46,604 nucleotides of DNA, taken from contig QCTB01000004.1 of NCBI GenBank assembly GCA_003209055.1, positions 1-46,604 of the forward strand, read 5' to 3'. The notes under the pieces are model-generated. The model searched no databases and was not told where the DNA came from. It saw nothing but the letters and a program-made list of their open reading frames with translations. The translations under genes and the position numbers were made by a program. The stretch comes from Prochlorococcus sp. AG-670-O13. Its GTDB lineage: Bacteria > Cyanobacteriota > Cyanobacteriia > PCC-6307 > Cyanobiaceae. Shown here one piece after another: positions 7,760 to 41,776 of this stretch (positions are counted from its first letter, which is position 1; each line of letters starts with the position of its first letter).

Positions 7760-7811
7760 AGAAATTTAAAAAAATTAATGAAATAACTATTCAATAATCA
7801 TTTTGCCTGCC

Positions 7812-8093
7812 AGAATATAAATGTCCACTCGGACTAGGTGATCTCAACCAATGTTTCGGACAGCGGTTCGATTCCGCTCAACTCCATTTACTGCTGGGGT
7901 TGTAATGGTTTCGACGGGGCGTAAGGAAGATGACTGAAGCCTGCTCGGTTAGAGCAAAAACACAAACGCTAACAAAATAGTTAGTTTCTCCCGTCAAACA
8001 GCACCAGTTGCTGCTTGATCTCAAAGGAGATGGGGTGATATCAGCCTTATCAACCAAATGATCCAAGGAGCCTGGAAGGGCTCCACCATTCTA
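7812..8093 (+). ncRNA. ssrA: Permuted (two-piece) cyanobacterial tmRNA; boundaries approximate
   Basis: Acceptor piece (CAGCGGTTCGATTCCGCTCAACTCCA, T-arm plus 3' acceptor) precedes the coding piece (GGGGTTGTAATGGTTTCGACGGGG); GGGGTTG pairs with CAACTCC (one G-U). Tag reading frame 7968-8018 = ANKIVSFSRQTAPVAA*. CCA not encoded. Confidence 0.95.
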
Positions 8094-8244
8094 AATTAAT
8101 CAAAGACTGTATTAGATAATTTATTAATTTGTAAAATTTACTTCAAGAGAATGTATTAGAAATTATTTTTTAAACTTTATGAGTATAAATACTGAGAAGA
8201 TTAGAAAAAATTTATTTTAACGTATTAGAAAATTAATAAGAAAA

Positions 8245-10185: not shown

Positions 10186-10361
10186 AAGTTGTAGAGTCAC
10201 CTGATCTCGAAAAAGAAAAAAGCGAGCATTCAGAAATAAGAAAGCCTAGCTTTTTAAGTAATTTTTTTGTAGGGTTTATAGGTTCTGTAATTGGAACTTC
10301 AACAATACTTTTCCTTTATATAAATAATTATCTACCACTGGACTTACTGAAACTTAAGTAG
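10119..10361 (+). CDS. Small membrane-anchored protein overlapping the ParA 3' end
   Basis: 80 aa; overlaps ParA by 67 nt in another frame; C-terminal TM (NFFVGFIGSVIGTSTILFLYI). Confidence 0.55.
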   Translation: MPDFEALIRHQQLKQPKNNQRLKVVESPDLEKEKSEHSEIRKPSFLSNFFVGFIGSVIGTSTILFLYINNYLPLDLLKLK

Positions 10362-10430
10362 TTAATTTGATATTGGCATCACAAAATTGATTTTATTTAG
10401 TACTAGAACAATTTAATTAGTAAGTATAAA

Positions 10431-11324
10431 CTAGTCAACGAGATTTCTAAATCTTGTAAATCGGGGTTCAAATAATAATTTAACTGTTCCAAGAGGACCA
10501 TTTCTGTGCTTGCAGGTAATTATTTCTGCAATGCCTCTATCCTCAGTTTCTGGATTATAATACTCATCTCTATAAATCATGGTAATAATATCTGAATAAA
10601 CTTCTAATGGTTCAAAGTCTCTGATATCACTTAACATTGGTCTCTTATTTTTTCTTTTCTCTACATCCTTGCTTAGTTGAGAAATAACTATAATAGGGAC
10701 ATTAAGTTCCTTTGCCATCCTTTTAAGACTCTTCGCTAATTTCAATAAATATTCTTCTCGATTCGATACATCTGAAATAGGCAAATAATCAAGTAATTGA
10801 ACATAATCAAGAATTACAAGTCCTAAACTCTTTTTTTCTGATTCCTCTTTAATCTTTTGACAGATTAATTGCATCTCTTTAATTGAACTTATTGGTTGAT
10901 CTGTTATGTGTAGGGGTAATTTGCTCAAAGAATCAATACCCTCACTCAATAAAGACCATTCATCTTGCTGTAACCTGCCCGTTCTTAATCTGCCTGATTC
11001 TATTCCTAACTCCATTGCTAAAAATCTATTAGATATTTGTTCCTTACTTATCTCAAAATGAAATAGACAAACTGGAAGATTCTGCGTTTTAGAAACATTT
11101 AAAGCCATATTCAAAGATAAAGAGGTCTTACCCATCGCAGGTCTTCCTCCCAAAACAATTATTCCACCTCTTGGCAGTCCTTGAGTCATGGCATCGTAAT
11201 CATAAAAACCTACTGGCATTCCAGATTCAGTTTTACCCAAAGCGCGATTTTCAATTTCTTCAAATTTATCACTCAATATCTCTCCAATTACTTTTGTTCG
11301 TTCAGTAATACTTTCTTCTTCCAT
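10431..11324 (-). CDS. DnaB-like helicase C-terminal (RecA-like) domain protein without N-terminal domain
   Basis: 297 aa; GIIVLGGRPAMGKTSLSLNMA Walker A, LVILDYVQLLD Walker B, PIIVISQLSKDVEKR, SDIRDF; no DnaB N-terminal domain. Confidence 0.85.
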   Translation of the reverse strand: MEEESITERTKVIGEILSDKFEEIENRALGKTESGMPVGFYDYDAMTQGLPRGGIIVLGGRPAMGKTSLSLNMALNVSKTQNLPVCLFHFEISKEQISNRFLAMELGIESGRLRTGRLQQDEWSLLSEGIDSLSKLPLHITDQPISSIKEMQLICQKIKEESEKKSLGLVILDYVQLLDYLPISDVSNREEYLLKLAKSLKRMAKELNVPIIVISQLSKDVEKRKNKRPMLSDIRDFEPLEVYSDIITMIYRDEYYNPETEDRGIAEIITCKHRNGPLGTVKLLFEPRFTRFRNLVD

Positions 11325-11403
11325 TTTTTTTTATAGGGAAACTTATATAAGCAAAATCTACAAAGAATGCAAACTAAGATTTTACAGTTAATTATTTATC
11401 CTA

Positions 11404-11556
11404 CTAACTTGTAAATAAATCTTGTATCACATATATATCTATTGCTTTAGGATACTTTTGTTGAAAAAATTTTATTGCATTACTTGGAGAAATAGCGTAA
11501 AGATTAATCTTTATCCTATATTCATTAACCAAAACTTAAATTAGATAATTTTTCAC
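11404..11556 (-). pseudogene. Degenerate copy of the small ORF at 16181-16336
   Basis: GTG-initiated frame VKNYLI*VLVNEYRIKINLYAISPSNAIKFFQQKYPKAIDIYVIQDLFTS*; in-frame TAA at codon 7; clearly homologous to VKNYLISGLVDEYRIKINLFAISPNHAIKVFQQKYPKAEDIFVIQNLSRKK. Confidence 0.7.
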
Positions 11557-11661
11557 GTTATAAAGTAAAGATTTCGTAATTTCAATCCAAATTTTGAAAT
11601 TTTACTTTTTAGAATCAGATCTTGATAGTTGTTATGAAAGTAGATCGTTATGTTGGAATTA

Positions 11662-11697
11662 ATAGTTATGAAAGTTAAATCCTATAATCATAACTAT
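11662..11697. promoter_or_regulatory. 10-bp perfect inverted repeat upstream of the YGNTTYGP gene pair
   Basis: ATAGTTATGA (11662-11671) / TCATAACTAT (11688-11697); also direct repeats GTTATGAAAGT at 11631-11641 and 11665-11675. Confidence 0.4.
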
Positions 11698-11845
11698 CTG
11701 TGATAAATGTAATAATTTACTTAAACATAATTTTGGGCAAATTATCAGTAGTAAAAGCTGATTAGATCTTAAAATTAATTTTTTTTAACTTTTATTGTCA
11801 AAAGAAAATTTTAGAGTATTATTTTTGGTAAATAATAATAATTTT

Positions 11846-12205
11846 ATGAAATTAGGCCCAATAAATTTAAATAATAGTTTAATTTCCCCATTAAAATTAA
11901 CGGGTACTTTTGCGGCAGCATCAATAACTTTTGGAATTATCCCTGTAGATGCTAATACTTGGAGCACTTACGGAAATACAACTTATGGTCCAAATGGTTC
12001 ATATAGCACTTACGGAAATACAACTTATGGTCCAAGTGGTTCATATAGCACTTACGGAAATACAACTTATGGTCCAAGCGGTTCATATAGCACTTACGGA
12101 AATACAACATATGGTCCAAGCGGTTCATATAGCACTTACGGAAACACAACTTATGGTCCAAATGGTTCAATAAGTTGTTACGGTAATACTTGTTATGGAC
12201 CTTAA
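11846..12205 (+). CDS. Secreted YGNTTYGP repeat protein, copy 1
   Basis: ATG at 11846 in the frame of ORF 11795-12205; 119 aa; signal-like N-terminus then units of about 14 aa (STYGNTTYGPSGSY), last unit SCYGNTCYGP. Confidence 0.8.
   Translation: MKLGPINLNNSLISPLKLTGTFAAASITFGIIPVDANTWSTYGNTTYGPNGSYSTYGNTTYGPSGSYSTYGNTTYGPSGSYSTYGNTTYGPSGSYSTYGNTTYGPNGSISCYGNTCYGP
11965..12203 (+). repeat. 42-bp tandem coding repeats
   Basis: Repeating agcacttacggaaatacaacttatggtccaagtggttcatat units. Confidence 0.9.
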
Positions 12206-12220
12206 AATTATTTTCTTAAT

Positions 12221-12580
12221 ATGAGATTAGGTTCAATTAATTTAACAAAAAATATAATAAGCTCTGTTCAAATTATTGGTATTTGCACAGCTGCAGGTTT
12301 AACTTTTGGAATACAACAAGTTGAAGCAAATACGTGGAAAAGCTACGGAAATACAACATATGGTCCAAGCGGTACATATAAAACCTATGGTAATACCACC
12401 TATGGACCAACTGGTACGTGGAAGAGTTACGGAAATACAACATATGGTCCAAGCGGTACTTATAAAAGCTATGGCAATACAATGTATGGGCCAAGAGGTA
12501 CCTATAAGACCTATGGAAATACAACATATGGTCCAAGCGGTACTATGAAATGTTATGGAAACACTTGTTATGGTCCATAA
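12221..12580 (+). CDS. Secreted YGNTTYGP repeat protein, copy 2 (paralogue)
   Basis: 119 aa, same length and layout; units SYGNTTYGPSGTYK/W; last unit KCYGNTCYGP. Confidence 0.8.
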   Translation: MRLGSINLTKNIISSVQIIGICTAAGLTFGIQQVEANTWKSYGNTTYGPSGTYKTYGNTTYGPTGTWKSYGNTTYGPSGTYKSYGNTMYGPRGTYKTYGNTTYGPSGTMKCYGNTCYGP

Positions 12581-12594
12581 ACTAATTTATTAAA

Positions 12595-13305
12595 TTGATA
12601 ATAGATATAGGTTGGTGCATTGCTGAGGAATTATCTTCCTCTATCTTTTTTGAACCTCAATCCTCTCAAATTAATTTTAAAAAAAAATCATCTAACGTAA
12701 AATCTGAAGGGGTAGTTAGATGTCCTGCTGTTCACAATTTAACTCTAAATAGAATTTTTAATATTAGATCTCCATATACTATAAAACTAAAAGCAATAGA
12801 GACTAGTGAACACAAAATTGATATTCGAGGAGTATATCCAGATACTGAAGTAGATGCATCAATTTTGCCATCTATTATAAGTATTGAACCAAGAGAATTA
12901 TGGATAGATAAAAATATACCAATCCTACAATTCAAAATGCCCTATGTTTTTTTCTCAGATATCCCAGTTTGGATTAACCAACTTGAAGCACCGTCTCAAA
13001 AAATAATTAAATCTTGGAGTTTGATACAAGGAAGATTTGACATTTACTCTTGGCAAAGATCTCTAAATTTCGCCACACAATGGTTTGATATTAAAAAAGA
13101 TTTTTATATTAAAAGAGGAGATCCTATCTTCCAAATATTTTTTGATACGACAGAAGCTTCTAACGAATTCAAATTAAAAAAAGTCATCTTAGATGAAAAA
13201 ATTAAAAGAAGAATTGCAAGTTGCGAAGGAGTTACTAAATTGATAAAAAATACAGGACAATTAATATCATCTAATAGAGACCCTAATCTGAAATTATTAC
13301 AATGA
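12595..13305 (+). CDS. Conserved hypothetical protein, possibly DUF6065-like (TTG start uncertain)
   Basis: 236-aa ORF, no ATG near the start; '...ERGDP'-like motif IKRGDPIFQIFF. Confidence 0.6.
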   Translation: MIIDIGWCIAEELSSSIFFEPQSSQINFKKKSSNVKSEGVVRCPAVHNLTLNRIFNIRSPYTIKLKAIETSEHKIDIRGVYPDTEVDASILPSIISIEPRELWIDKNIPILQFKMPYVFFSDIPVWINQLEAPSQKIIKSWSLIQGRFDIYSWQRSLNFATQWFDIKKDFYIKRGDPIFQIFFDTTEASNEFKLKKVILDEKIKRRIASCEGVTKLIKNTGQLISSNRDPNLKLLQ

Positions 13306-13631
13306 TGGATCAAAGAAAAACTGTATATGGGAACCAAGGACAATTAGTGCCAGATTTTTATATACATAGCATTAGTAGAGCATATATTGAAGATGAAAAT
13401 CTTATGCTTATTTTAGCTACAGCGGTAGGTATAGAAACATCAACAGAAAAATATGCAAATGAAATAGCTAGGATTATTATCCCCTTATCAAAGGTTATTG
13501 AGATTAATAAATCTATATCTGATGCCACTGCATACGCAATACAGAATAAAAATATCAAAACACAAAATACTTCTGAAGATCCTAATAATGAACCTAAATA
13601 TAATCTTGGTGAATCATTAGGTTTATTTTAG
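13302..13631 (+). CDS. Hypothetical protein translationally coupled to the upstream gene
   Basis: ATGA overlap (13302-13305) with the preceding stop codon; 109 aa. Confidence 0.65.
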   Translation: MMDQRKTVYGNQGQLVPDFYIHSISRAYIEDENLMLILATAVGIETSTEKYANEIARIIIPLSKVIEINKSISDATAYAIQNKNIKTQNTSEDPNNEPKYNLGESLGLF

Positions 13632-13771
13632 TTTGAATACAAAAATGAAAATCTTAGATGTAATGAAGACATTTGGATTATCCACATCCTTTCATATCAA
13701 TTCATATAAAAGATTAAAGTAGTAATTTCTTAAATCCCCCTCCGATTAACTGCTACATTTATTTGTTTTTA

Positions 13772-14182
13772 TTATTCTTGTAAATTTGCATTAGAAGGTT
13801 TGCACATTAAATAAATAAAATATATTGAACCTAAGATTGGAAGAATTTGAATAAAAATCCATTTCCAATTCTTCGAAATATCATTTAATCTTCTAATTGA
13901 AATTGATAAACCAACTAGAATATTTCCCAGGATATAAAATAAAGAAACAATCGATATTATTTGACTTATAACGGCAAATATTGTGCTAAGAAGAGAAAAA
14001 CCAAAAACTATAGGGTCATTAGTAAGGAAAGCGTACTGAAAATTAAAAAGCAAATTTTGAATAACATTCAATGTTATAAATAAAATTAAACTTGCTAATT
14101 CATAAAACCAAAAATCTTTTCTTGATGTTTTCCCTTTAAAGGCAAAAGCATTTTTCCATGCTAATGCAAAGGATTTAATCAT
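13772..14182 (-). CDS. DUF805 family membrane protein
   Basis: ALAWKNAFAFKGKTSRKDFWFYELASLI and ISIRRLNDISKNWKWIFI: typical DUF805 (GR.SRxxFW; RRLHD) pattern, several TMs. Confidence 0.88.
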   Translation of the reverse strand: MIKSFALAWKNAFAFKGKTSRKDFWFYELASLILFITLNVIQNLLFNFQYAFLTNDPIVFGFSLLSTIFAVISQIISIVSLFYILGNILVGLSISIRRLNDISKNWKWIFIQILPILGSIYFIYLMCKPSNANLQE

Positions 14183-14342
14183 GAATTTATAGTTATTAAA
14201 AATATTATATTTTAGATATTCAGTAAAATAATATTAAATAGTGATTTTTGGGTCAATTTAAATACTATGACTCCACTATTTTTCTAGGAGTATTTTATAA
14301 ATAAATTAATAGCTTGATTCATTACAGCGCATAAGTTCTTAT

Positions 14343-14378
14343 TTAGGTTGTATACTCGCTATTGGTTTCCACGTACCT
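14343..14378 (-). repeat. argJ 3'-end copy A2 (att-like)
   Basis: Minus strand AGG TAC GTG GAA ACC AAT AGC GAG TAT ACA ACC TAA = RYVETNSEYTT* versus ArgJ KYVEINSEYTT*. Confidence 0.8.
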
Positions 14379-14419
14379 TAAAAACTATTGCTATCACTAG
14401 GTTTATGTCTCCAAAACTG

Positions 14420-14441
14420 GTGTTATACTAGTGTTATAAAG
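14420..14441 (+). repeat. 11-bp tandem direct repeat pair
   Basis: GTGTTATACTA-GTGTTATAAAG. Confidence 0.75.
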
Positions 14442-14481
14442 GAATTTCAACACTATCAAACCTATTGGTATCACTTAACTA

Positions 14482-14503
14482 GTGTTAGAAAAGTGCTATG
14501 AGG
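14482..14503 (+). repeat. 11-bp tandem direct repeat pair
   Basis: GTGTTAGAAAA-GTGCTATGAGG. Confidence 0.6.
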
Positions 14504-14608
14504 ATGTTAGTAGTAAGTATTAATTAGGCAGCAAGATTGGTATATTTTTTTTAAAGGTTGTAAGATTTATTAAATTCTAAATTTAAATATTATAAAATTA
14601 CGATTTTA

Positions 14609-14986
14609 ATGCATAATTTTTATTTCCCTAAATTATTTAACAAACCATTTTTCTTAGTTCCTTTTACATTCTTTTTGAATCATTCTGCCTTTGCTATTGA
14701 CTATAGTTGCATAGTTTCGACATATGATGATAAATCCGTGAATATGCAAATTTCTTCTGAAGGTTCTAAATATAAAGTTTATGTTGGCAAAACTTTTATG
14801 GGAAATTTTAAATTAATAGAAAATAATAGTAGTTTTCTTCATATTTTTAATTCATGGGAAACATTAGAGTCATCAATGCATATAGGAATTGATAAAAAAA
14901 CAAATTATTTAATATCTAATCTGATGGATTTTAAAAAAGAAAGATCATCTACACGAGCGATTGGTTTCTGTAAAGAAGAGTATTAA
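14609..14986 (+). CDS. Small secreted hypothetical protein (argJ-array cassette gene)
   Basis: 125 aa, hydrophobic signal-like N-terminus FFLVPFTFFLNHSAFAID; lies between argJ-end copies A2 and A1. Confidence 0.65.
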   Translation: MHNFYFPKLFNKPFFLVPFTFFLNHSAFAIDYSCIVSTYDDKSVNMQISSEGSKYKVYVGKTFMGNFKLIENNSSFLHIFNSWETLESSMHIGIDKKTNYLISNLMDFKKERSSTRAIGFCKEEY

Positions 14987-15002
14987 AATCATTAATAATT
15001 TG

Positions 15003-15024
15003 GTGTTATTTTAGTGTTACATTC
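15003..15024 (+). repeat. 11-bp tandem direct repeat pair
   Basis: GTGTTATTTTA-GTGTTACATTC. Confidence 0.7.
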
Positions 15025-15069
15025 AAAAATTAGTTTCTTATAATCAACTGCTATAAAAAGCATCTGAGT

Positions 15070-15102
15070 TTATGTCGTATATTCGCTATTAATTTCTCCA
15101 TA
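15070..15102 (-). repeat. argJ 3'-end copy A1 (att-like)
   Basis: Minus strand TAT GGA GAA ATT AAT AGC GAA TAT ACG ACA TAA = YGEINSEYTT*. Confidence 0.8.
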
Positions 15103-15146
15103 GGGGTATAAATCAAGTTATAACTGTGATCTCAAGGATTTAATTA

Positions 15147-15168
15147 GTTTCATATTGGTGTCATAAAT
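15147..15168 (+). repeat. 11-bp tandem direct repeat pair
   Basis: GTTTCATATTG-GTGTCATAAAT. Confidence 0.6.
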
Positions 15169-15207
15169 CTTTTTAAGGTCTTCAAAAGTATTGCTATCAC
15201 TAAACTA

Positions 15208-15229
15208 GTGTCATATTGGTGTCATAAGT
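15208..15229 (+). repeat. 11-bp tandem direct repeat pair
   Basis: GTGTCATATTG-GTGTCATAAGT. Confidence 0.7.
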
Positions 15230-15268
15230 AGACTAATAAATATAGACTGCTATTGCTAGAAAACTGTT

Positions 15269-15553
15269 TTAACAAGAATACTTTGTTGAGCATTCAAATG
15301 TTTTAAATACTCTTGGAAAAAATATATCAGTATCAGCATCAACTTTTCCAGTAACCCCAACCGACCCATCTATCCCAACAGATCCATTTATACTTGCTTC
15401 AGTTGCTATGGCACCTTGAATATAAACAGGTCCTTTTACTCTGACTTCCTTTAATGAAGATGTTTTGAGTCTTAAAGGAAGCAAAAGTATAGAAAATGCC
15501 AACAATAGATTTGAAAGTGGGTGAGCAAATTTCAAAATTGTTTCTTTGTTCAT
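15269..15553 (-). CDS. Small membrane-anchored protein with short beta-repeat-like segment
   Basis: ATG at 15553 in the frame of ORF 15269-15640: MNKETILKFAHPLSNLLLAFSILLLPLRLKTSSLKEVRVKGPVYIQGAIATEASINGSVGIDGSVGVTGKV... Confidence 0.55.
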   Translation of the reverse strand: MNKETILKFAHPLSNLLLAFSILLLPLRLKTSSLKEVRVKGPVYIQGAIATEASINGSVGIDGSVGVTGKVDADTDIFFPRVFKTFECSTKYSC

Positions 15554-15636
15554 GAGTTTAATGAATGTTAAATAAATGTATATCAATAATCCTTTCTTGG
15601 CATGATGATTAGCAATGATGAATAACTTTACTTTTA

Positions 15637-16179
15637 TCAATCATTAATTATTTCATCGATTATTCCGTAAAAAATTGCCTCTTTAGGAGTTAGGAAGTTA
15701 TCTCCCCTACTGCTCCAGTATTTACTATCCTCTTTAATACGCTCAAGATTCTGATTAGTTTTTTCTAATAATCTTCCATAAATTTCTGCTTTTGCTCTTC
15801 TCATCGAATGTACATCCTCACTAGTAATAATTTCTTTCTTTTCTGGATAAGATATTTCGGATAAACTAATTTTTGAATGTGGATAACTAAATCGTAGTCC
15901 TTTTGTTCCTGAAGCAAGAATAAGTGTTGATAAACCACTCGCAGTGCCATTACAAATAGTATGTACTTCAGTACGGGGAGAAATGTATTGAATTGCATCT
16001 AATATCGCCAAACCATAAGATACTGAACCGCCCGGGGAATTAATAAAGAAATTGATGTGAGATTTATTATTTTTACTATCTAATTCGAGTAATTTATAGA
16101 CTATTTTATCTGCGACAGTTTCTGTTATTTCTCCATTAAGAAAAATATTACTTTCACCAGAATTATTTAACTCATCCAT
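15637..16179 (-). CDS. Divergent ClpP/ClpR-like protein, catalytic Ser and His positions not conserved
   Basis: FFINSPGGSVSYGLAILDAIQYI, HTICNGTASGLSTLILASGTKGLRF, FLTPKEAIFYGIIDEI align to ClpP; likely start MDELNN at 16179, 1 nt after the upstream small-ORF stop codon. Confidence 0.8.
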   Translation of the reverse strand: MDELNNSGESNIFLNGEITETVADKIVYKLLELDSKNNKSHINFFINSPGGSVSYGLAILDAIQYISPRTEVHTICNGTASGLSTLILASGTKGLRFSYPHSKISLSEISYPEKKEIITSEDVHSMRRAKAEIYGRLLEKTNQNLERIKEDSKYWSSRGDNFLTPKEAIFYGIIDEIIND

Positions 16180-16180
16180 A

Positions 16181-16336
16181 TTATTTCTTTCTAGATAAAT
16201 TCTGAATGACAAAAATATCTTCTGCTTTGGGATATTTTTGTTGAAAAACCTTTATTGCATGATTAGGGGAGATGGCAAACAAATTTATTTTGATTCTATA
16301 TTCATCCACTAAACCTGATATTAGATAATTTTTCAC
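16181..16336 (-). CDS. Small (51 aa) protein, GTG start, upstream of and adjacent to the ClpR-like gene
   Basis: GTG..: VKNYLISGLVDEYRIKINLFAISPNHAIKVFQQKYPKAEDIFVIQNLSRKK*; protein-level similarity to the copy at 11404-11556 supports coding. Confidence 0.65.
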   Translation of the reverse strand: MKNYLISGLVDEYRIKINLFAISPNHAIKVFQQKYPKAEDIFVIQNLSRKK

Positions 16337-16523
16337 TAACAAATAATTACTCTTAATAGAGTCATTTTATAATCTTATATTAATTAAATTTAAACTTATT
16401 TCCATTCATTGTTATCCCATATAGAGTTCTTTGTTTTTTGTTCTAAATCACTTATCTATAAAGGTCCCAGTTCTAAAAAAGATTAATTCTTATTAGAAAA
16501 AAATTATTATGTGGAAATCAAGG

Positions 16524-16545
16524 GTTATAACACTGTTATATAAAA
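16524..16545 (+). repeat. 11-bp tandem direct repeat pair (degenerate)
   Basis: GTTATAACACT-GTTATATAAAA. Confidence 0.5.
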
Positions 16546-16557
16546 TTTAAATCGCTT

Positions 16558-16582
16558 AAATCCATTGCCCTGCAATGGATTT
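16558..16582 (-). terminator. Perfect 11-bp hairpin directly after the argJ stop codon
   Basis: AAATCCATTGC CCT GCAATGGATTT, perfect inverted repeat, 3-nt loop, 3 nt beyond the argJ stop. Confidence 0.6.
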
Positions 16583-16585
16583 GAA

Positions 16586-17824
16586 TCAAGTCGTGTATTC
16601 GCTATTTATTTCAACATATTTTTTAGAAAGATCACATCCCCATGCAGTACCTTTGGATAGGCCAGAATTAAGATTAAGAATAATTAGCACAATATCTTCC
16701 TCTAAATATTTACCGTTCATTTTAGACTTCATATAATCTGAGACTTTTTGCGAATCATATTGACATAAGTTCCCACTTTCCAAAATTTGATAATCACCAA
16801 TGTATAAATCAACATGATTAAGGTTAAATTCAACCTCAGAATTGCCAGCAGCTGCAATAATTCTTCCCCAATTGGGATCACAGCCATGTATTGCAGTTTT
16901 TACCAGTGAAGAATTACATATAGATTTAGCAATTCTGATTGCATCATCATCATGTTTCGCTCCTTGAACTAAAACCTCTAATAAGCAATTTGCTCCTTCT
17001 CCATCTCTTGCAATATTTTTTGCCAAGTTTTGACATACGATATCAATTCCTAACTGGATGATTGACAAGAATTTTTTATTAATTTTTTTACCCGTATTTA
17101 TTCCAATAAAAGAATCATTAGTGCTAGTCTCCCCATCGACTGATATTGCATTAAAGGATTTTTTTATAGCAATAGAAATCATCTTTTCCCATTCTTCTTT
17201 CTCAACTCCTACATCACATGTAAGAAAGGCTAACATTGTAGCCATGTTCGGATAAATCATTCCGGATCCTTTTGCAAATCCAGCTATTCTCACTTTTCTA
17301 CCTTCAATATTTGTCTCTATTGCAACTTTTTTGCAAGTCAAGTCAGTAGTTAAGATTGCTTCTGAAGCATTTTGGAAACTATTTACTTGTAAGTCACTTA
17401 CTAATTTTGGTAAATTTTTAACTAGATTATTTATTGGTATAGGTACACCAATCACGCCTGTTGAGCACATTAAAACCTCTTCTTCTTCGATTCCTAATAG
17501 TTCTGAAATCTTAGATGTAGCAATTAAAAAATGTTGAGTTCCAAAATTCCCTGTACACGCATTTGCTTGGCCAGAATTAATTAGAATTGCTCTAACAAGG
17601 CCTGAACTCTTTTTAATTCTTTTTTCACAAATTTCTACACAAGAAGCTCTAACTTTTGACTGAGTAAACATGCCACTACAAATACTACCTTCTGGGGCTA
17701 GTATTAATGCTAAATCTTTCTTTTTAGAAGTTTTTAATCCAGCCGATATTCCCGCAAAACAAAAGCCTTCCGGTGTTACATCACCCTCACTAATAAACGA
17801 CCAATTGGCATCAATTTGACTCAA
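16586..17824 (-). CDS. argJ: Bifunctional glutamate N-acetyltransferase / amino-acid acetyltransferase ArgJ
   Basis: 412 aa; KGSGMIYPNMATMLAF (ArgJ autocleavage region GMIxPxMATML), GCDPNWGRIIAAAGN. Confidence 0.96.
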   Translation of the reverse strand: MSQIDANWSFISEGDVTPEGFCFAGISAGLKTSKKKDLALILAPEGSICSGMFTQSKVRASCVEICEKRIKKSSGLVRAILINSGQANACTGNFGTQHFLIATSKISELLGIEEEEVLMCSTGVIGVPIPINNLVKNLPKLVSDLQVNSFQNASEAILTTDLTCKKVAIETNIEGRKVRIAGFAKGSGMIYPNMATMLAFLTCDVGVEKEEWEKMISIAIKKSFNAISVDGETSTNDSFIGINTGKKINKKFLSIIQLGIDIVCQNLAKNIARDGEGANCLLEVLVQGAKHDDDAIRIAKSICNSSLVKTAIHGCDPNWGRIIAAAGNSEVEFNLNHVDLYIGDYQILESGNLCQYDSQKVSDYMKSKMNGKYLEEDIVLIILNLNSGLSKGTAWGCDLSKKYVEINSEYTT

Positions 17825-34566: not shown

Positions 34567-34587
34567 TTATTCCCACTCAATTGTTCC
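34567..34587 (-). repeat. guaA 3'-end copy R3 (exact)
   Basis: Minus strand GGA ACA ATT GAG TGG GAA TAA = GTIEWE*; identical to the last 21 nt of guaA. Confidence 0.9.
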
Positions 34588-34626
34588 AATGCTCTAAACC
34601 AGCACTATGACAAGGGTCGATTTTGC

Positions 34627-34648
34627 GTGACAAACCTATGACAAACCG
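34627..34648 (+). repeat. 11-bp tandem direct repeat pair
   Basis: GTGACAAACCT-ATGACAAACCG. Confidence 0.75.
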
Positions 34649-34809
34649 AATTATTCCTAACATTATGTAAATAGAACTTATTTGTTGAATTAAATGTAGA
34701 GAATTCGTTAGAAACTGCAATTAAAATCAATCAATATTTCACCAGTAAAATCTTTATAAAAATTTTTGTAAAGACTATAATCGCTATAAAGAATCTATTT
34801 TTATAAATA

Positions 34810-36294
34810 ATGAAAGGTTTTGGCGAAAAAAACCAATCAAAGCAAGAAATAACTTCAAAAAATAAACAGAAAGTAAATTTCGGTCAATTAATTAAAAAAG
34901 CATTCGAACTACAATCACAAGGAAAGAAATTAGAAGCAGCAAAATACTATGCATATCTTATTAAACAAGGAATAAAAGACTATAGAGTTTTTTCGAATTA
35001 TGGAATATTTCTTAACGAGATCGGAAAACATAAAGAAGCAGAATTAGAACTTAAAAAAGCAATTTCTTTAAATCCAGAATATCCCAATGCTTACTACAAT
35101 CTCGCAGTTTTATACATAGGTCAAGGAAATTTGGAAAAAGCAGAATTAGAACTTAAAAAAACAATTCAACTTAAATCAGACTTTGCTATTGCTCACTTTA
35201 ATCTTGGATTCATATTAAAAGATCAGGGTAGATTAAAAGAGGCAGAAAAATATACTCAAAAAGCACTTGAAGTTGATCCTCAATTTACGGATGCATATTT
35301 GTCACTATCAACAATGCAAACAAATGATACAAGTCAAAAATGGCATAATCAACTTTTTTCTGAAAGTCTTTTAAAAAATAAAAATAATAGAGAGTTAGTG
35401 AATATTTTTTTCGCGAGATCAAATATTTTTCATAGAAAAGGCAAATATAAAGAAAGTGCTGAGAATCTTATTACTGCAAATAATATCAAACTTAGAATAC
35501 ATAAATCTGAAGCAAATTTATTAATCGATAAAACTAAAAAATTAAAAATATCCTCAGAGAATTATGAAAGAAATAATCAAGAATTTAAAAATTATCCAAT
35601 GTCTATTTTTATAGTAGGTCTTCCTAGATGTGGTTCTACCCTTATCGAATCAATAATCAGTTTTAATAGTAAAGTAATAGATCTTGGAGAAGTAAATATC
35701 CTTGAAAAATCATATAGAGAATATAAGCAATCTGAAAAACAAATAAACCTTAGCGAAATATATTGGAAAAAACTGGAAATAACAGATAATAAAACAACCA
35801 CAACAAATAAGTGGTTATTTAATTATCAGTATGCAGGCATAATTGCCAAAGCAATTCCTAATGCAAAAATAATACATTGTTATAGAAACCCTTTAGATAA
35901 TATTCTTTCAACTTATAGAGCACATTTCGCAACAGGGAATAATTTCTCTTCAAGTTTGGTTGATTCTGCCAAAGTCTATTCTGATCAAGATGAGATTATG
36001 CAAACATATAAGAAAGAATTTAAAAATCATATATATTCATTAAATTACGATAAGTTAGTGACTAATCCTTCAAAGGAAATAAAATCCTTAATTCGTTGGT
36101 TAGGTTGGAACTGGAATGATTTATATTTATCGCCACATTTAAATAATCGTAAAGTCTCAACAAGAAGCAATGTTCAGGTTCGTTCACCAATTAATACAAA
36201 ATCTTTAGGAGGATGGAAAAACTACAAAGAGATGCTTAGACCTGCTATGGAAATCATTACTAAAAAGAACAAATATAAAGACCTTAAGTATTAA
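34810..36294 (+). CDS. TPR-repeat protein with C-terminal sulfotransferase domain
   Basis: N-terminal TPR repeats (AYYNLAVLYIGQGNLEKAELELKKTIQL); MSIFIVGLPRCGSTLIESIIS PAPS-binding P-loop; IIHCYRNPLDNILSTYR. Confidence 0.88.
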   Translation: MKGFGEKNQSKQEITSKNKQKVNFGQLIKKAFELQSQGKKLEAAKYYAYLIKQGIKDYRVFSNYGIFLNEIGKHKEAELELKKAISLNPEYPNAYYNLAVLYIGQGNLEKAELELKKTIQLKSDFAIAHFNLGFILKDQGRLKEAEKYTQKALEVDPQFTDAYLSLSTMQTNDTSQKWHNQLFSESLLKNKNNRELVNIFFARSNIFHRKGKYKESAENLITANNIKLRIHKSEANLLIDKTKKLKISSENYERNNQEFKNYPMSIFIVGLPRCGSTLIESIISFNSKVIDLGEVNILEKSYREYKQSEKQINLSEIYWKKLEITDNKTTTTNKWLFNYQYAGIIAKAIPNAKIIHCYRNPLDNILSTYRAHFATGNNFSSSLVDSAKVYSDQDEIMQTYKKEFKNHIYSLNYDKLVTNPSKEIKSLIRWLGWNWNDLYLSPHLNNRKVSTRSNVQVRSPINTKSLGGWKNYKEMLRPAMEIITKKNKYKDLKY

Positions 36295-36371
36295 TCAAGA
36301 AAAAATTTATTCACCTAAGGAAATAATATGTAGAGAAAACCATTACTCTACGATTTCTCAACAGAGAAAGT

Positions 36372-36393
36372 GTCACAGTGCCGTGACGAACCA
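36372..36393 (+). repeat. Degenerate 11-bp tandem repeat pair
   Basis: GTCACAGTGCC-GTGACGAACCA, 37 bp before core R4. Confidence 0.4.
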
Positions 36394-36430
36394 CTAAACC
36401 TTTACTATTTCTGACAAATTGCCCATAGAA

Positions 36431-36451
36431 CTACTCCCAATCAATGGGTCC
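36431..36451 (-). repeat. guaA 3'-end copy R4 (diverged)
   Basis: Minus strand GGA CCC ATT GAT TGG GAG TAG = GPIDWE*. Confidence 0.65.
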
Positions 36452-36513
36452 ACCCAATTTTGATAATTCACAGTAGTTGGTATGAATTACTTGGATGATG
36501 GCAATATTCTCAC

Positions 36514-36535
36514 GTAAAACCCACGTAAAACCGAT
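36514..36535 (+). repeat. 11-bp tandem direct repeat pair
   Basis: GTAAAACCCAC-GTAAAACCGAT. Confidence 0.8.
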
Positions 36536-36617
36536 TAACTCCATTCTTGATACTTGTAGTTGTAAATATATGCACTAATTGTAGAGAATACATTTTTATT
36601 CTCATCAGGTTTCTAAA

Positions 36618-38045
36618 TTAACAATTTTCCTTTATCCAACTTTTATTCTCAGAACTTTCTTCACCCAAAGATACTGCTTTTTTTGCATCAAAACACGCAC
36701 CGTCTAAATCATTAATTTTTTCTTTTAAAATACTTCTATTAAGGAAACTCAAACCTTGTTCAGCATTAATTAAAATTGATTTATTATAGTCAGAGATTGC
36801 TCCGTAATAATCCTTTAACTCATCCTTTAATAAAGCACGACTAAAATATGCTTCTTCTTTATCAGGATCTATTTCTATTGCCTTGTTTAAATCAAAGAGC
36901 CCTCCTTCGTAGTCTCCAAGCTTTCTTTTAGATATTGCTCTATGAACGAGAAAGTAATAGTCGTTTGGGGCAACTTTTAAATACTTATTGTAAGTGCTAA
37001 TTGCACCATAATGATCGTTCATTTTAGATTGTATATTTCCATAAGTAAAAAGTGCAGAAGAATCAAGAGGTTTGATTTGAATTGCCTTTAAACAATTCTC
37101 TAATGCAGAGATATTATCATTTAGATCTTTTTTTGCTAAGCATAATCTATGGTATAAATACCAACTAGAAGCACTTTGTGATTCATTTTCAAAAAATTTA
37201 GGTTTTCTGTCCAAAAGATCAATGATCAATTTTGAATTACCTTTCTCGTTATTTAATTCGGTTGCCTTAACTAAATGATCTTCAATAGTTATCAATTCTT
37301 TAGAATAATCAAAAGAAGTTCCATTTTTAAAATTAATAAAATGTGAATTTGGTACCCCAATAGAATACGACGAAGATTTATCTTGAAAAGAGTTAGACGT
37401 AGACATAGTATTAATTCCAACTAATTGCCCATAATTATCAAAAATTCCACCACCACTCATACCTGGCACAACTTTACTTGTGTAAACTAATTGATTTCCA
37501 TCCTTTACTTTTACCTTTGACATTGCGATAACTTCTCCTTTTTGAAAATAAAAATTACTATCCGCAAAACCAGAAGAAAATAATACAGCACCTTTTTTCA
37601 GCATTGATAAGTTTGAAAAATTGACAGTTTCATACTCTTTATCAGTTTCAAAAGTAAATATTGCCATATCTAAGTTTTGAATTTGTTTTATAGTCTCGAT
37701 ATTAACTTCATGAAAATTATAATCCGCAGTACGAATATTAAAGGGGAGTTCTAAATCAATATCTTCAAATAAGTGCCAAGCAGTCAAAATAGTATATTCT
37801 CTACCATTTTTTTCAATAATTACACCAGATCCTGATGCAGATGGAATAATTATTTCTACAGCAGCAGATCTTGCTAAAGAGGAATTTTGATAAAATTCTT
37901 TTGCTTGTTCTCTTTCTTTTAAATTACTACTACTAATTGGAATGGATTCAATTTTTCCAAACAAAATTGGCGAAAAAATAATCGCACTTAAGGCAATACT
38001 TTTTTTCAAATAATTTTTTTTTAATAATTTATAGAAAAAAGGCAT
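36618..38045 (-). CDS. Secreted trypsin-like serine protease fused to TPR repeats
   Basis: TAWHLFED (His), LDMAIFTF (Asp), VPGMSGGGIFDNYGQLVGIN (Ser) then TPR units; hydrophobic N-terminus. Confidence 0.85.
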   Translation of the reverse strand: MPFFYKLLKKNYLKKSIALSAIIFSPILFGKIESIPISSSNLKEREQAKEFYQNSSLARSAAVEIIIPSASGSGVIIEKNGREYTILTAWHLFEDIDLELPFNIRTADYNFHEVNIETIKQIQNLDMAIFTFETDKEYETVNFSNLSMLKKGAVLFSSGFADSNFYFQKGEVIAMSKVKVKDGNQLVYTSKVVPGMSGGGIFDNYGQLVGINTMSTSNSFQDKSSSYSIGVPNSHFINFKNGTSFDYSKELITIEDHLVKATELNNEKGNSKLIIDLLDRKPKFFENESQSASSWYLYHRLCLAKKDLNDNISALENCLKAIQIKPLDSSALFTYGNIQSKMNDHYGAISTYNKYLKVAPNDYYFLVHRAISKRKLGDYEGGLFDLNKAIEIDPDKEEAYFSRALLKDELKDYYGAISDYNKSILINAEQGLSFLNRSILKEKINDLDGACFDAKKAVSLGEESSENKSWIKENC

Positions 38046-38079
38046 AAATTAGATATCAAAAAAATGTATTTAATTAGTA

Positions 38080-38862
38080 TTATTTACAATTATTATTAAT
38101 CCAGTCTTTATTTTCAGGATTATCATTACCTAAAGAATTATACATTTTGGCATCCAAACAAGCACCATTTAAATCATTAATTTTTTCTTTTGAGAGACTT
38201 CTATTAAAGTAAGAGTTACTATGTTTAGGATCGTTTTTAATAGCATTACTGTAGTCAGATATTGAACCATAATAATCTTTTAATTCAAATTTTGCTATTC
38301 CACGATTGTAATAAGCACTTACGTATTTAGAATCAATTTCTATTGCTCTATTGAAATCAGATATCGCACCATAATAATCTTTCAAGTCAGTTTTAGCAGA
38401 CCCACGATTGTAGTATGCACCTTTATTTTTTGGATCCATTTCTATTGCTTTATTATAATCAGATATCGCAGCATAATTTTCATTTAAGGAAGCATGACTA
38501 TTTCCTCTAGCGATATAGGCATTAACTTTTTTTGGATTAATTTCTATTGCCTTAGTATGATCTGATATTGAACCTGAATAATCTCCTATCGCATTTTTTG
38601 ACAACCCTCGATTATAAAACGCAGATTGATTTCTAGAATCTGTTTCAATAACTTTTGAATAATCAGATATTGCTCCGTAGTGATCTCCTGCTTTCGCTTT
38701 CTCAAAAGCACTTTTAAAATATATTTTTACTTGAGCATTTACTTGTTTAGGATAAAAAATTATTATTCCAATGGTTGATAAAGAAACTCCAGTTTTAATA
38801 ATTAATGGTTGCCCTAATGGAATTATAGATAATATTGCACCAATAAAAGCAGTCCTTTTTTT
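38080..38862 (-). CDS. Secreted TPR-repeat protein
   Basis: MKKRTAFIGAILSIIPLGQPLIIKTG... signal-like leader; Sel1-like/TPR units GAISDYSKVIETDSRNQSAFYNRGLSK; MKKRTAF start inside ORF 38080-38877. Confidence 0.88.
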   Translation of the reverse strand, partial: KKRTAFIGAILSIIPLGQPLIIKTGVSLSTIGIIIFYPKQVNAQVKIYFKSAFEKAKAGDHYGAISDYSKVIETDSRNQSAFYNRGLSKNAIGDYSGSISDHTKAIEINPKKVNAYIARGNSHASLNENYAAISDYNKAIEMDPKNKGAYYNRGSAKTDLKDYYGAISDFNRAIEIDSKYVSAYYNRGIAKFELKDYYGSISDYSNAIKNDPKHSNSYFNRSLSKEKINDLNGACLDAKMYNSLGNDNPENKDWINNNCK

Positions 38863-38952
38863 CATCTCAAAATTCACTTTTAATTAATATACCAACAATA
38901 GAGCAAATAGACTTTATCCTATTTCTCTTAAGAGACAGCGGAAAGGTGCTGC

Positions 38953-38974
38953 GTAAAACCCACGTAAAACCGCT
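38953..38974 (+). repeat. 11-bp tandem direct repeat pair without a core copy
   Basis: GTAAAACCCAC-GTAAAACCGCT followed directly by the post-core tail. Confidence 0.7.
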
Positions 38975-39050
38975 TAACTCCATTCTTTGTACTTTTCCCT
39001 GTAATTAGATGAAATAATTGTAGAGAATACATTTTTTTTAAAACTTCTAA

Positions 39051-39632
39051 TCAACAATTATCCTTAATCCAATTTTCATTATCAGATGCTGTATCACCCA
39101 AAGAAACTGCTTTTTTCGCATCTTCACAAGCACCTTTAATATCTCCAATATTCTCCTTTGAAATACTCCTATTCTTAAATGCATTTGCATATTGAGGATT
39201 GATTTCTATCGCTTTTGTATAGTCAGATATTGCTCCATAATAATCTTTAAGTTCATCTTTTGCGTATCCACGATTGTTATATGCATCTGCATATTGAGGA
39301 TTGATTTCTATCGCTTTTGAATAGTCAAGAATAGATCCTTTATAATCTTTAAGTTCATCTTTTGCGTGTCCACGATTATAAAAAGCATCATCGTTTTGTG
39401 GATCAATTTCTATTGCTCTTGTAAAGTCAGAAATCGCTCCATTATGATCACCTTTCTCTGCTTTATCAGAACCACGATTATAAAAAAAAGCAGAATTTCT
39501 TGCATATACATTTTCAGAAACTGCGAGCATTAATCCTGTTGTAGATAAAAATAAACCAGTTTTAATAATTAATGGTTGCCCTAATGGAATTAGAGATAAT
39601 ATTGCACCAATAAAAGCAGTTCGTTTTTTCAT
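39051..39632 (-). CDS. Secreted TPR-repeat protein (paralogue)
   Basis: MKKRTAFIGAILSLIPLGQPLIIKTGLFLSTTGLML leader; TPR units. Start of ORF 39051-39680 probably internal (MKKRTAF). Confidence 0.88.
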   Translation of the reverse strand: MKKRTAFIGAILSLIPLGQPLIIKTGLFLSTTGLMLAVSENVYARNSAFFYNRGSDKAEKGDHNGAISDFTRAIEIDPQNDDAFYNRGHAKDELKDYKGSILDYSKAIEINPQYADAYNNRGYAKDELKDYYGAISDYTKAIEINPQYANAFKNRSISKENIGDIKGACEDAKKAVSLGDTASDNENWIKDNC

Positions 39633-39718
39633 ATCAAATTTACTTTTAATCAATATATCAACTTTAGAGAAAACAGGCATTACACGATTTCTCTTAGGAG
39701 ACAGCGAAAAGGTGTTGC

Positions 39719-39740
39719 GTAAAACTCACTTAAAACCGAT
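39719..39740 (+). repeat. 11-bp tandem direct repeat pair
   Basis: GTAAAACTCAC-TTAAAACCGAT, 34 bp before core R2. Confidence 0.7.
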
Positions 39741-39774
39741 TAATTGAAGTTATAACTGGGTTCTTAAAATCCGT

Positions 39775-39795
39775 TTATTCCCACTCAATGGTTCC
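39775..39795 (-). repeat. guaA 3'-end copy R2
   Basis: Minus strand GGA ACC ATT GAG TGG GAA TAA = GTIEWE*; one synonymous mismatch. Confidence 0.85.
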
Positions 39796-39852
39796 ACACA
39801 ATTTTGATGCATCAAAGTTATTGGTATCATTGACTTCAAAAGGGTAATTCTC

Positions 39853-39874
39853 GTGACAAACCTGTAACAAACCG
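39853..39874 (+). repeat. 11-bp tandem direct repeat pair
   Basis: GTGACAAACCT-GTAACAAACCG. Confidence 0.8.
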
Positions 39875-39942
39875 AAGACTTCCATTCTTTATACTTTCCT
39901 CTGTAATTAGATGAACTAATTGTAGAGAATTAGTATTGATAT

Positions 39943-40722
39943 CTAACATTCATCTCTTACCCATTTGGCAGAATCTTTATCTCCCAAAGAAGACGCTTTT
40001 CCCCAATCATCACAAGCACCTTTTAAATCCCCAATCTCTTCCTTAGCAATCCCACGATTTTTATACGCACTTTTATCTTTTGGGTCAATTTCTATCACTT
40101 TTGTATAATCAGAAATTGCTCCGTAATAATCTTTTAATTTATCTTTTACAAATGCACGATTGAAATATGCATCTGTATATTGTGGATCAAGTTCTATCGC
40201 TCTTGTGAAATCAGAAATTGCTCCGTAGTAATCTTTTAAATAAGATTTTGTATCACCTAAATTATTATATGCAGAGGCATATTTTGGATCAAGTTCTATT
40301 GCTTTCGAAAAAGCAATTTTTGCTCCCTCATAATCGCCTAATTCAGATTTGCAATACCCTATTCCATGGTAAGAAGTAGGTCTATCTGCTTTTATTTCTA
40401 TTGCTTTTATATAATCTGAAATTGCCTCATAGCATTTACCCAAAAACTCCCTTGAAACGCCACGATTATGATATGAATAATCATCTTTTGGGTCAATTTT
40501 TATTGCTTTTGTATAATCTGCAATTGCGCCAATATGATCTCCATTTTCTGCTTTTTGATAAGCACGATCAAAATAATAATCAGAATTTCTAGCGCTTACT
40601 TTTTCAGGAACAGAAAGTATCAATCCTGTTGTAGATAAAACTACACCAGTTTTAATTAATAATGGTTGACTTAATGGTATTAAAGATAATATTGAACCAA
40701 TAAAAGCAGTTCGTTTTTTCAT
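39943..40722 (-). CDS. Secreted TPR-repeat protein (paralogue)
   Basis: MKKRTAFIGSILSLIPLSQPLLIKTG leader; TPR units such as YYGAISDFTRAIELDPQYTDAYFNRAFVKDKLKD. Confidence 0.9.
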   Translation of the reverse strand: MKKRTAFIGSILSLIPLSQPLLIKTGVVLSTTGLILSVPEKVSARNSDYYFDRAYQKAENGDHIGAIADYTKAIKIDPKDDYSYHNRGVSREFLGKCYEAISDYIKAIEIKADRPTSYHGIGYCKSELGDYEGAKIAFSKAIELDPKYASAYNNLGDTKSYLKDYYGAISDFTRAIELDPQYTDAYFNRAFVKDKLKDYYGAISDYTKVIEIDPKDKSAYKNRGIAKEEIGDLKGACDDWGKASSLGDKDSAKWVRDEC

Positions 40723-40806
40723 CTAAAAAATACTTTTTATCAATATACCAACTTTAGAAAAAACAGACATTATACGATTTCTCTTAAGTGAGAAGCAAAA
40801 GTGTTC

Positions 40807-40828
40807 GTGACAAACCCGTAACAAACTG
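40807..40828 (+). repeat. 11-bp tandem direct repeat pair
   Basis: GTGACAAACCC-GTAACAAACTG. Confidence 0.75.
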
Positions 40829-40922
40829 ACATCTGAAAACCCTTGGTATCAGGTATTTAGGATTTGAGATTGTGTGTGATAAACCAATAAATTGAAGTTA
40901 TAACTAGGTTTTTAAAAGCAAT

Positions 40923-40943
40923 TTATTCCCACTCAGTAGTTCT
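40923..40943 (-). repeat. guaA 3'-end copy R1 (diverged)
   Basis: Minus strand AGA ACT ACT GAG TGG GAA TAA = RTTEWE*. Confidence 0.75.
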
Positions 40944-41003
40944 ACCCCAAAAGACCCCTTCACTATGGTTGGTATGATTGATATTTTTAAAGTCACAAGT
41001 TTC

Positions 41004-41025
41004 GCAACAAACCTGCAACAAAGTT
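41004..41025 (+). repeat. 11-bp tandem direct repeat pair
   Basis: GCAACAAACCT-GCAACAAAGTT. Confidence 0.75.
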
Positions 41026-41088
41026 AAACCCATAATTTTTTATACTTTTGAATGGTACTTATTGATTTAATTTTGAAAAAATCAATTA

Positions 41089-41568
41089 TTAATTTCGATA
41101 GCACGGACCGTAATGGACAGTAAAATCATATCCATTATTTTGCATATGATTTGTATAAGTCATATACATTATATCCTTTGAATTCTCTATTTTTTTAAAT
41201 GTTATTGTTGAAACTTGAGGTCCTCCTTCAACAGTTCTCATATCTTCTTCTATAGCAACTAGACTATCCTTTTTCAGACTAATAATTTTGAAGTAATTTT
41301 GTATTGATAATTTTTTGTCTTTAAAATTTAGAGTATATTTTTGAATTAATGACTTATTAAATTCATCTACATTTAAATCCCAGTATCTATTTTGTAGGTA
41401 TTCCCAATTGTTGTCATTAGATTCAAGTATATATGTTTGCAATTCACACTTATATTTAATTACTTCAGCATTAACTGTTTCTGAAGAGATAAAGAAAAAA
41501 AGTGGATACGTTAAAAAACTAACTGGTATTAAAAATCTACAAAAATGTTTTCGAAATTTAATAAACAA
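41089..41568 (-). CDS. Small secreted hypothetical protein (guaA-array cassette gene)
   Basis: 159 aa; hydrophobic leader FCRFLIPVSFLTYPLFFFISSETVNAEV. Confidence 0.65.
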   Translation of the reverse strand: MFIKFRKHFCRFLIPVSFLTYPLFFFISSETVNAEVIKYKCELQTYILESNDNNWEYLQNRYWDLNVDEFNKSLIQKYTLNFKDKKLSIQNYFKIISLKKDSLVAIEEDMRTVEGGPQVSTITFKKIENSKDIMYMTYTNHMQNNGYDFTVHYGPCYRN

Positions 41569-41646
41569 AACCTTAAGAAAATAAATAACTCTTAAGAAGA
41601 AATTTAATAGTGTTTGATTTCTTCATAAAGAAAGAAAAAATATTTT

Positions 41647-41668
41647 GCAATAAACTGGCAACAAACAT
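41647..41668 (+). repeat. 11-bp tandem direct repeat pair
   Basis: GCAATAAACTG-GCAACAAACAT. Confidence 0.65.
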
Positions 41669-41717
41669 ACGCAATGAAATCGTAGTTATATTGTCATCTT
41701 GTCTTTATAATTTTACC

Positions 41718-41739
41718 ACAACAAACTCGCAACAAACCG
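41718..41739 (+). repeat. 11-bp tandem direct repeat pair
   Basis: ACAACAAACTC-GCAACAAACCG, 37 bp before the guaA stop codon. Confidence 0.7.
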
Positions 41740-41776
41740 CAAGAATGAGGATATGACTACACTTTGACCCTATAAC

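Follow-up and report, generated by a model that had tools for sequence, protein, structure and literature searches.

Stacked cassettes behind argJ look like a gene-swapping system of Prochlorococcus and its relatives

Why are the last codons of an essential housekeeping gene repeated in the DNA behind it? The question is raised by argJ in a 46,604-nucleotide stretch of Prochlorococcus sp. AG-670-O13 (contig QCTB01000004.1, positions 1 to 46,604), referred to here as the window. ArgJ has 412 amino acids, is encoded on the minus strand, and ends in KYVEINSEYTT*. The original prediction placed two more copies of this ending in the window, and both are found: PYGEINSEYTT* (core at 15070-15090) and RYVETNSEYTT* (core at 14343-14363), with nucleotide identities to the argJ end of 25/29 and 22/29, respectively. 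With the last 40 nucleotides of argJ as the query, these copies are the top matches in the 46 kb, and the runner-up is an unrelated 26/40 match on the opposite strand. A third, degenerate core copy (10354-10374, 17/21 identical) had been overlooked. Native flanking sequence begins behind it at 10353, and 50 of its 60 positions are identical to the sequence directly after argJ in array-free genomes. The array therefore runs from 16586 to 10354, includes a third segment, and measures 6.2 kb, not 2.2 kb. Judged from comparative sequence evidence, the argJ 3′ end very probably serves a large family of small, non-autonomous integrative cassettes as their chromosomal attachment site (attB), and these cassettes would be moved in trans by rare helper integrases. 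The array looks like a gene-swapping system common to Prochlorococcus and its relatives.

The DNA downstream of argJ, up to 14 kb, was taken from 79 relatives, and the window was added (n = 80). Most of these genomes are fragmentary single-cell assemblies, and the native flank is defined for the genus Prochlorococcus only. Six of the 80 could not be classified (contig ends or divergent clades), and 74 could. The site is empty in 33 of the 74, with the conserved native sequence GTTTTAGTAAATCTAATGG directly after the argJ stop codon. It is occupied in 41, including the window, and here the native sequence is displaced by 0.15-9.3 kb. Each occupied site has one to four extra core copies of about 21 bp, which bound one to four cassettes, and in 38 of the 41 the first native base immediately follows the last core copy. 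Extra copies and variable gene content are thus present behind argJ in close relatives, as the original prediction had expected.

The averaged identity to the empty-site consensus changes abruptly at the core. For argJ of occupied sites it is 0.94 up to the core and 0.32 after it. The distal copies have 0.37 before the core (foreign) and 0.92 after it (native), while internal copies reach 0.87 in the core only, with 0.38 and 0.30 outside. This profile fits the prediction of reciprocal site-specific recombination, with the switch from host to element inside the core. Direct repeats of the argJ 3′ end bound the elements, argJ is restored, and empty sites with exact junctions exist. The copies could instead be remnants of an argJ 3′-end duplication or of homologous recombination, and one genome (G143:C12:28225-28680) does have a truncated second argJ copy (the last 152 codons), located upstream of the intact gene and close to a contig end. 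That copy is possibly a single-cell assembly chimera. In displaced copies, identity just upstream of the core is at the background level of 0.37-0.38, these copies are always oriented as argJ, the native-flank junctions are exact in 38/41, and the segments bear short repeats at fixed offsets, so that duplication retains almost no probability and is already refuted by the junction profile.

The position of the exchange can be narrowed within the core. ACTTAA forms the last codons and stop at 30/33 empty sites and in 28/38 of the distal copies, against only 9/41 argJ genes at occupied sites, and the AGC/TCN serine-codon variants stay with argJ. Since ACTTAA moves with the element and the serine variants do not, strand exchange would fall between them, at about GARTAYAC. 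By the same profile, the argJ core of the window (16586-16606) is predicted to be a hybrid, host-derived to the left of the crossover and derived from cassette 1 to its right. Other genera of the family have ArgJ proteins ending in NADYTT, and the displaced copies there likewise encode NADYTT. The earlier claim that the similarity is maintained at the protein level holds in part: displaced copies are untranslated, but the copy on the element is matched to the ArgJ end of its host. Each element supplies the last two codons and the stop, and its copy has therefore had to encode a working ArgJ end.

The cassette ends bear paired short repeats spaced 11 bp apart. For the four best-sampled motifs this spacing is found in 23/24, 12/12, 22/32, and 38/62 nearby pairs. 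The repeats fall into dialects: A comprises TGACACYAATA and near variants, B is TTGCTTACAGT, C is GTGATTATGGT, and there are two further variants of A. Their offsets from the core are fixed, at +50/−72 for A, +48 and about −82 to −85 for B, and +71/−93 for C; taken together, the arms fall at +48 to +51 or +71 on one side and at −72, −82, or −93 on the other. In a scan of 265 genomes, most class-A matches are located behind argJ, where the distance from the end of the argJ match to the first arm is exactly 52 bp; one conserved variant at another location, ATAACACCAATCTGACACTA, is the main exception. The reversed class-A motif gave no match in this genus-wide scan. In the window, the 22-bp paired motif has four matches, all in 14.4-15.3 kb, compared to 0.04 expected, and the outer pair of cassette 1 matches the genus-wide class-A motif exactly. 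Across the assembly, of which the window is contig C4 (incomplete, 1.06 Mb, 68% complete), every match but one weak one falls in the argJ array. Chance and codon-level convergence are ruled out by this single-locus clustering of the arms and by the exact junctions. Of 25 cassettes with both ends typed, 24 have the same dialect at either end, where shuffling predicts 6.5. Spacing, position, and pairing mark the repeats as putative integrase arm-type sites, and the likely agent behind the repetition, which the original prediction did not name, is a set of tyrosine-integrase attachment sites with such arms.

These features suggest the following mechanism. A circular cassette would carry the argJ-end core flanked by the 11-bp paired arm repeats. 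A phage-type tyrosine integrase, similar to lambda Int, would bind both the arms and the core and insert the cassette into argJ by recombination. With the crossover inside the core, the cassette would replace the last two codons and the stop of argJ, and the old end would be pushed downstream. Because argJ would then end in an intact core again, the next cassette would enter ahead of the previous one and the stack would grow. Integrase-less cassettes with one cargo gene would be moved in trans by rarer full-size elements that have the same core and arm dialect.

The segments are small: the 72 that were delimited have a median length of 1,512 bp, 65 are shorter than 3 kb, and 50 contain exactly one open reading frame of at least 80 amino acids. 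Recurrent cargo includes YadA-anchor adhesins (18 genomes), thiamine-binding proteins, PEBP proteins, lone DnaB C-terminal domains, and SRA-HNH and PD-(D/E)XK nucleases. An integrase relative is found in two segments only, L196 (527 amino acids, PF00589) and L219 (457 amino acids), and 70 of the 72 have none. The L196 integrase was considered as sole helper and rejected, as it has weak relatives in just four other genomes of the genus. This scarcity led to a wider search with a profile of the L196, L219, and guaA-site integrases, which found more integrases close behind argJ in other genera. There, the elements L387-L391 are bounded by argJ core copies and encode integrases of 462-550 amino acids. 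L387 (462 amino acids) has C-type arms at +71, −83, and −187. In L389-L391 (482-550 amino acids) the arms are A-like (TAACACC) and lie at +49/50 and −73 to −85, while those of L196, at +48 and −85, are B-like. Each main dialect therefore has an integrase-bearing counterpart at argJ with the same geometry. These integrases would catalyze the reaction and act on the cassettes in trans. L196 and L219 also share a protein of 78-97 amino acids with the C-terminal motif GYSxLVKxLI, which occurs in an unrelated integrase locus as well (L203, 56% identity) and is a candidate regulator or directionality factor.

A recombinase resident in the chromosome could shuffle the cassettes instead, as IntI does in integrons. 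A tyrosine recombinase of about 389 amino acids is present about once per genome in nearly all genomes of the genus, for example at L201 (G109:C1:505148-505567). It belongs to PF00589 and shows weak similarity to the guaA-site integrases, but the similarity spans short stretches only. The presence of at least three arm dialects at a single site points to several recombinases, and in other genomes integrases accompanied by matching arms are located right at argJ. The resident recombinase is a decidedly improbable agent.

Integrase-less cassettes have spread horizontally. They are 92-96% identical between genomes whose argJ genes are only 76-81% identical (L237/L254, L237/L244, L037/L239), and one cassette shared between clades is 96% identical where argJ is 78%. 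The reverse is also found: argJ is 98.5-99.3% identical, yet occupancy or content differs (L048/L068, L224/L226), and a pair with 98.5% identical argJ has one occupied and one empty site. One cassette is the first of its array in L224 and the fourth in L236. The identity contrasts and occupancy differences support recent horizontal gain and loss, not a transfer mechanism. They also bear on the possibility that the cassettes are static cis-mobilizable elements (CIMEs), that is, remnants of integrase-bearing elements after deletion of the integrase, carried at most in cis with an active neighbor. CIMEs arise by such deletion in arrays of integrative and conjugative elements (ICEs) or integrative and mobilizable elements (IMEs) (PMC5704250), and the integrase-less ssrA islands of Dehalococcoides are interpreted as such relics (PMC3146451). 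Some cassette ends are decayed or mismatched, and the third segment in the window is evidently old. However, cassette cargo is unrelated to that of the integrase-bearing elements, and most cassettes are therefore not recent deletion products of these. Both ends are intact and of the same dialect in nearly all typed cassettes, and the same cassette recurs in divergent clades, more identical than argJ, and at different array positions. The relic explanation is thus unlikely, though less so than the resident recombinase.

Several points weigh against mobilization by helper integrases. Neither excision nor recombination has been observed, and no integrase of this family is found in the window's own assembly, which is 68% complete. 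Class A is tied to its candidate helpers by motif similarity and geometry, not by identical repeats, and these helpers are found in other genera only. The arms of L219 itself could not be made out. Cassette L066, at least, has mismatched ends and L048 and L061 look mosaic, so some cassettes may be dead composites. A prophage origin was rejected after pattern scans of IMG/VR with the core and three arm dialects, which gave no cyanophage-like contig with core and arms; nor did these scans give any other virus contig with core plus arms that might point to a route between cells. Excision, integration, and trans-mobilization, continued movement of the cassettes, and their travel between cells are accordingly put forward as what the sequence comparisons suggest.

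The features of the array in the window are listed in Table 1.

Table 1. Coordinates of the argJ array in the window
Feature	Position	Strand	Remarks
argJ	16586-17824	−	last 21 nt (16586-16606) = putative attachment core
Cassette 1, 1495 bp	15091-16585	−	class-A arms at distal end
Degenerate arm-type repeats, argJ-proximal end of cassette 1	16519-16536	−	weak: consensus with 2 mismatches, below strict pair test
53-aa open reading frame, cassette 1	16181-16342		
ClpP/ClpR-like protein, cassette 1	15637-16212		
123-aa beta-repeat-like protein, cassette 1	15269-15640		
Outer arm-type repeat pair, distal end of cassette 1	15206-15227	−	ATGACACCAATATGACACTA on argJ strand, 133 bp to next core
Inner arm-type repeat pair, distal end of cassette 1	15145-15166	−	about 72 bp to next core
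Core copy 2	15070-15090	−	AATAGCGAATATACGACATAA, encodes NSEYTT*
Cassette 2, 706 bp	14364-15069	−	class-A arms at both ends, matching
Arm-type repeat pair, argJ-proximal end of cassette 2	15001-15022	−	51 bp from core
125-aa secreted protein	14609-14986	+	sole open reading frame of cassette 2
Arm-type repeat pair, distal end of cassette 2	14418-14439	−	72 bp from core
Core copy 3	14343-14363	−	AATAGCGAGTATACAACCTAA, encodes NSEYTT*
Third segment, 3968 bp	10375-14342	−	no recognizable arms
DUF805 protein, third segment	13772-14182		
109-aa and 236-aa open reading frames, third segment			
YGNTTYGPSG-repeat secreted proteins, third segment	11795-12205, 12221-12580		
Remnant of 53-aa open reading frame, third segment	11409-11556		
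Lone DnaB C-terminal-domain gene, third segment	10431-11324		
Core copy 4, degenerate	10354-10374	−	AATATCAAATTAACTACTTAA
Native argJ-downstream sequence (empty-site flank)	10294-10353	−	50/60 identical to sequence after argJ in 33 genomes

The cargo of the window comprises a ClpP/ClpR-family protein, a DUF805 protein, a DnaB C-terminal domain, and small secreted proteins. The ClpP/ClpR-like protein matches CLP_protease (PF00574, E = 3e-37). By eye, it has GTASGLS at the position of the catalytic serine motif of active ClpP, which suggests a non-catalytic subunit of the ClpR type. The small open reading frame beside it has a 77%-identical remnant beside the DnaB-like gene, and the same small gene therefore rode in two segments; relatives of it are also found in L037 and L072. 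The third segment is older than cassettes 1 and 2 and probably composite. Its lone DnaB helicase domain (PF03796, E = 5.5e-80) is recurrent cargo in five genomes, and the DnaB-type cassette is also present in L037, L237, L244, and L254. The two adjacent small secreted proteins consist of 14-amino-acid YGNTTYGPSG repeats in 42-nucleotide units, and L062, L071, and L331 have similar short repeat proteins among their cargo. PADLOC identified no clear defense system among five cargo proteins. A transfer-messenger RNA (tmRNA) gene (7797-8109), located away from the array, is the sole RNA gene found in the window.

The window has a second array of the same design, as had been claimed, at the 3′ end of guaA (34567-41798). 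It contains four further copies of TGGAACAATTGAGTGGGAATAA, with cores at 40923, 39775, 36431, and 34567, and 11-bp paired repeats of the GGTTTGTTGCG type, and the same arrangement is found in relatives. Its cargo consists mostly of TPR proteins. In the relatives L197 and L199, integrases of 490 amino acids lie right behind guaA. The argument for a general mechanism from two unrelated core genes stands, with formal counts of occupancy made for argJ.

Similar arrays are known at other sites. CIMEs and accretion arrays related to ICESt1 in Streptococcus thermophilus are integrase-less, bounded by attL and attR, and placed in tandem at a gene 3′ end by site-specific recombination (PMC5704250). Cassette 2 and most of the 72 cassettes likewise keep attL and attR without integration or transfer genes. 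In contrast to CIMEs, they are tiny (median 1.5 kb, mostly one gene), their array almost never has an integrase, they bear arm repeats at both ends, they occur in about half of the genomes, and no conjugation genes were seen in them. The ssrA islands of Dehalococcoides form a tandem array behind a single-copy gene, with 20-bp direct repeats of its 3′ end; 15 of 31 lack an integration module, and no duplicate islands occur within a strain (PMC3146451). These islands are larger, use a serine recombinase, and target the tmRNA gene, whereas the argJ system has tyrosine integrases, targets a protein-coding gene, and consists of one-gene cassettes that bear arm repeats. The tycheposons of Prochlorococcus (Hackl et al. 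2023), as described second-hand in PMC10872708, are reported at tRNA genes, seven of them in Prochlorococcus, and to measure 4-200 kb. According to this account, they share with the argJ cassettes the host genus, site-specific tyrosine recombinases, and cargo islands that remodel the flexible genome. Compared by this description, the arrays differ in lying at argJ and guaA, in being mostly below 3 kb, and in lacking a recombinase; the core is the coding end of argJ and not a tRNA gene.

The 3′ end of guaA is an established target of the tyrosine integrases of genomic islands and IMEs (PMC5704250), and the second array of the window shares this target. The original prediction knew of no described element class targeting argJ. 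This holds for argJ, which was not found as an integration site in the literature searched, but not for the guaA target or for integrase-less arrays, which are known (PMC5704250, PMC3146451). Relative to that literature, the new features are the use of argJ as a target, cassettes of mostly a single gene, the almost complete lack of integrases, and matched arm dialects that are also those of rare integrase-bearing elements. An earlier description is possible, especially among the tycheposon literature.

The arrays resemble integrons in their single-gene cassettes, with the newest beside the fixed site, in their separate integrase, and in their highly variable content. Their boundaries are duplex cores of about 21 bp with 11-bp arm pairs and not attC hairpins, although no attC-specific model was run, and what serves as the fixed site is a housekeeping-gene end that each cassette rebuilds. 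No IntI was identified: 70 of 72 cassettes have no integrase, and the argJ-adjacent integrases L219 and L387 were not set against IntI models. A broader interpretation is offered tentatively, at slightly less than an even chance. Marine picocyanobacteria may share a community-wide pool of single-gene, integrase-less cassettes that rebuild the terminus of a housekeeping gene, and the arms may be the address for one helper-integrase lineage. The helpers would be rare visitors, and the cassettes would be satellites of integrases, not of phages or plasmids. This would be an integron-like system made from lambda-type attachment sites, present side by side at more than one core gene (argJ, guaA), and in several non-interchangeable dialects.

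Prochlorococcus is the most abundant photosynthetic cell in the ocean and combines one of the smallest free-living genomes with an enormous shared gene pool. The argJ and guaA arrays offer a concrete, genome-wide testable route by which single genes may enter and leave such small genomes. The parts are tractable: two defined sites, a core of about 21 bp, arm dialects that can be read, candidates for the helper integrases, and close relatives that do or do not have cassettes. If the proposed explanation is true, the arrays would be a rare example of satellites that depend on an integrase and are centered on a single cargo gene, and argJ would be a site where a protein C-terminus is rebuilt upon every insertion.

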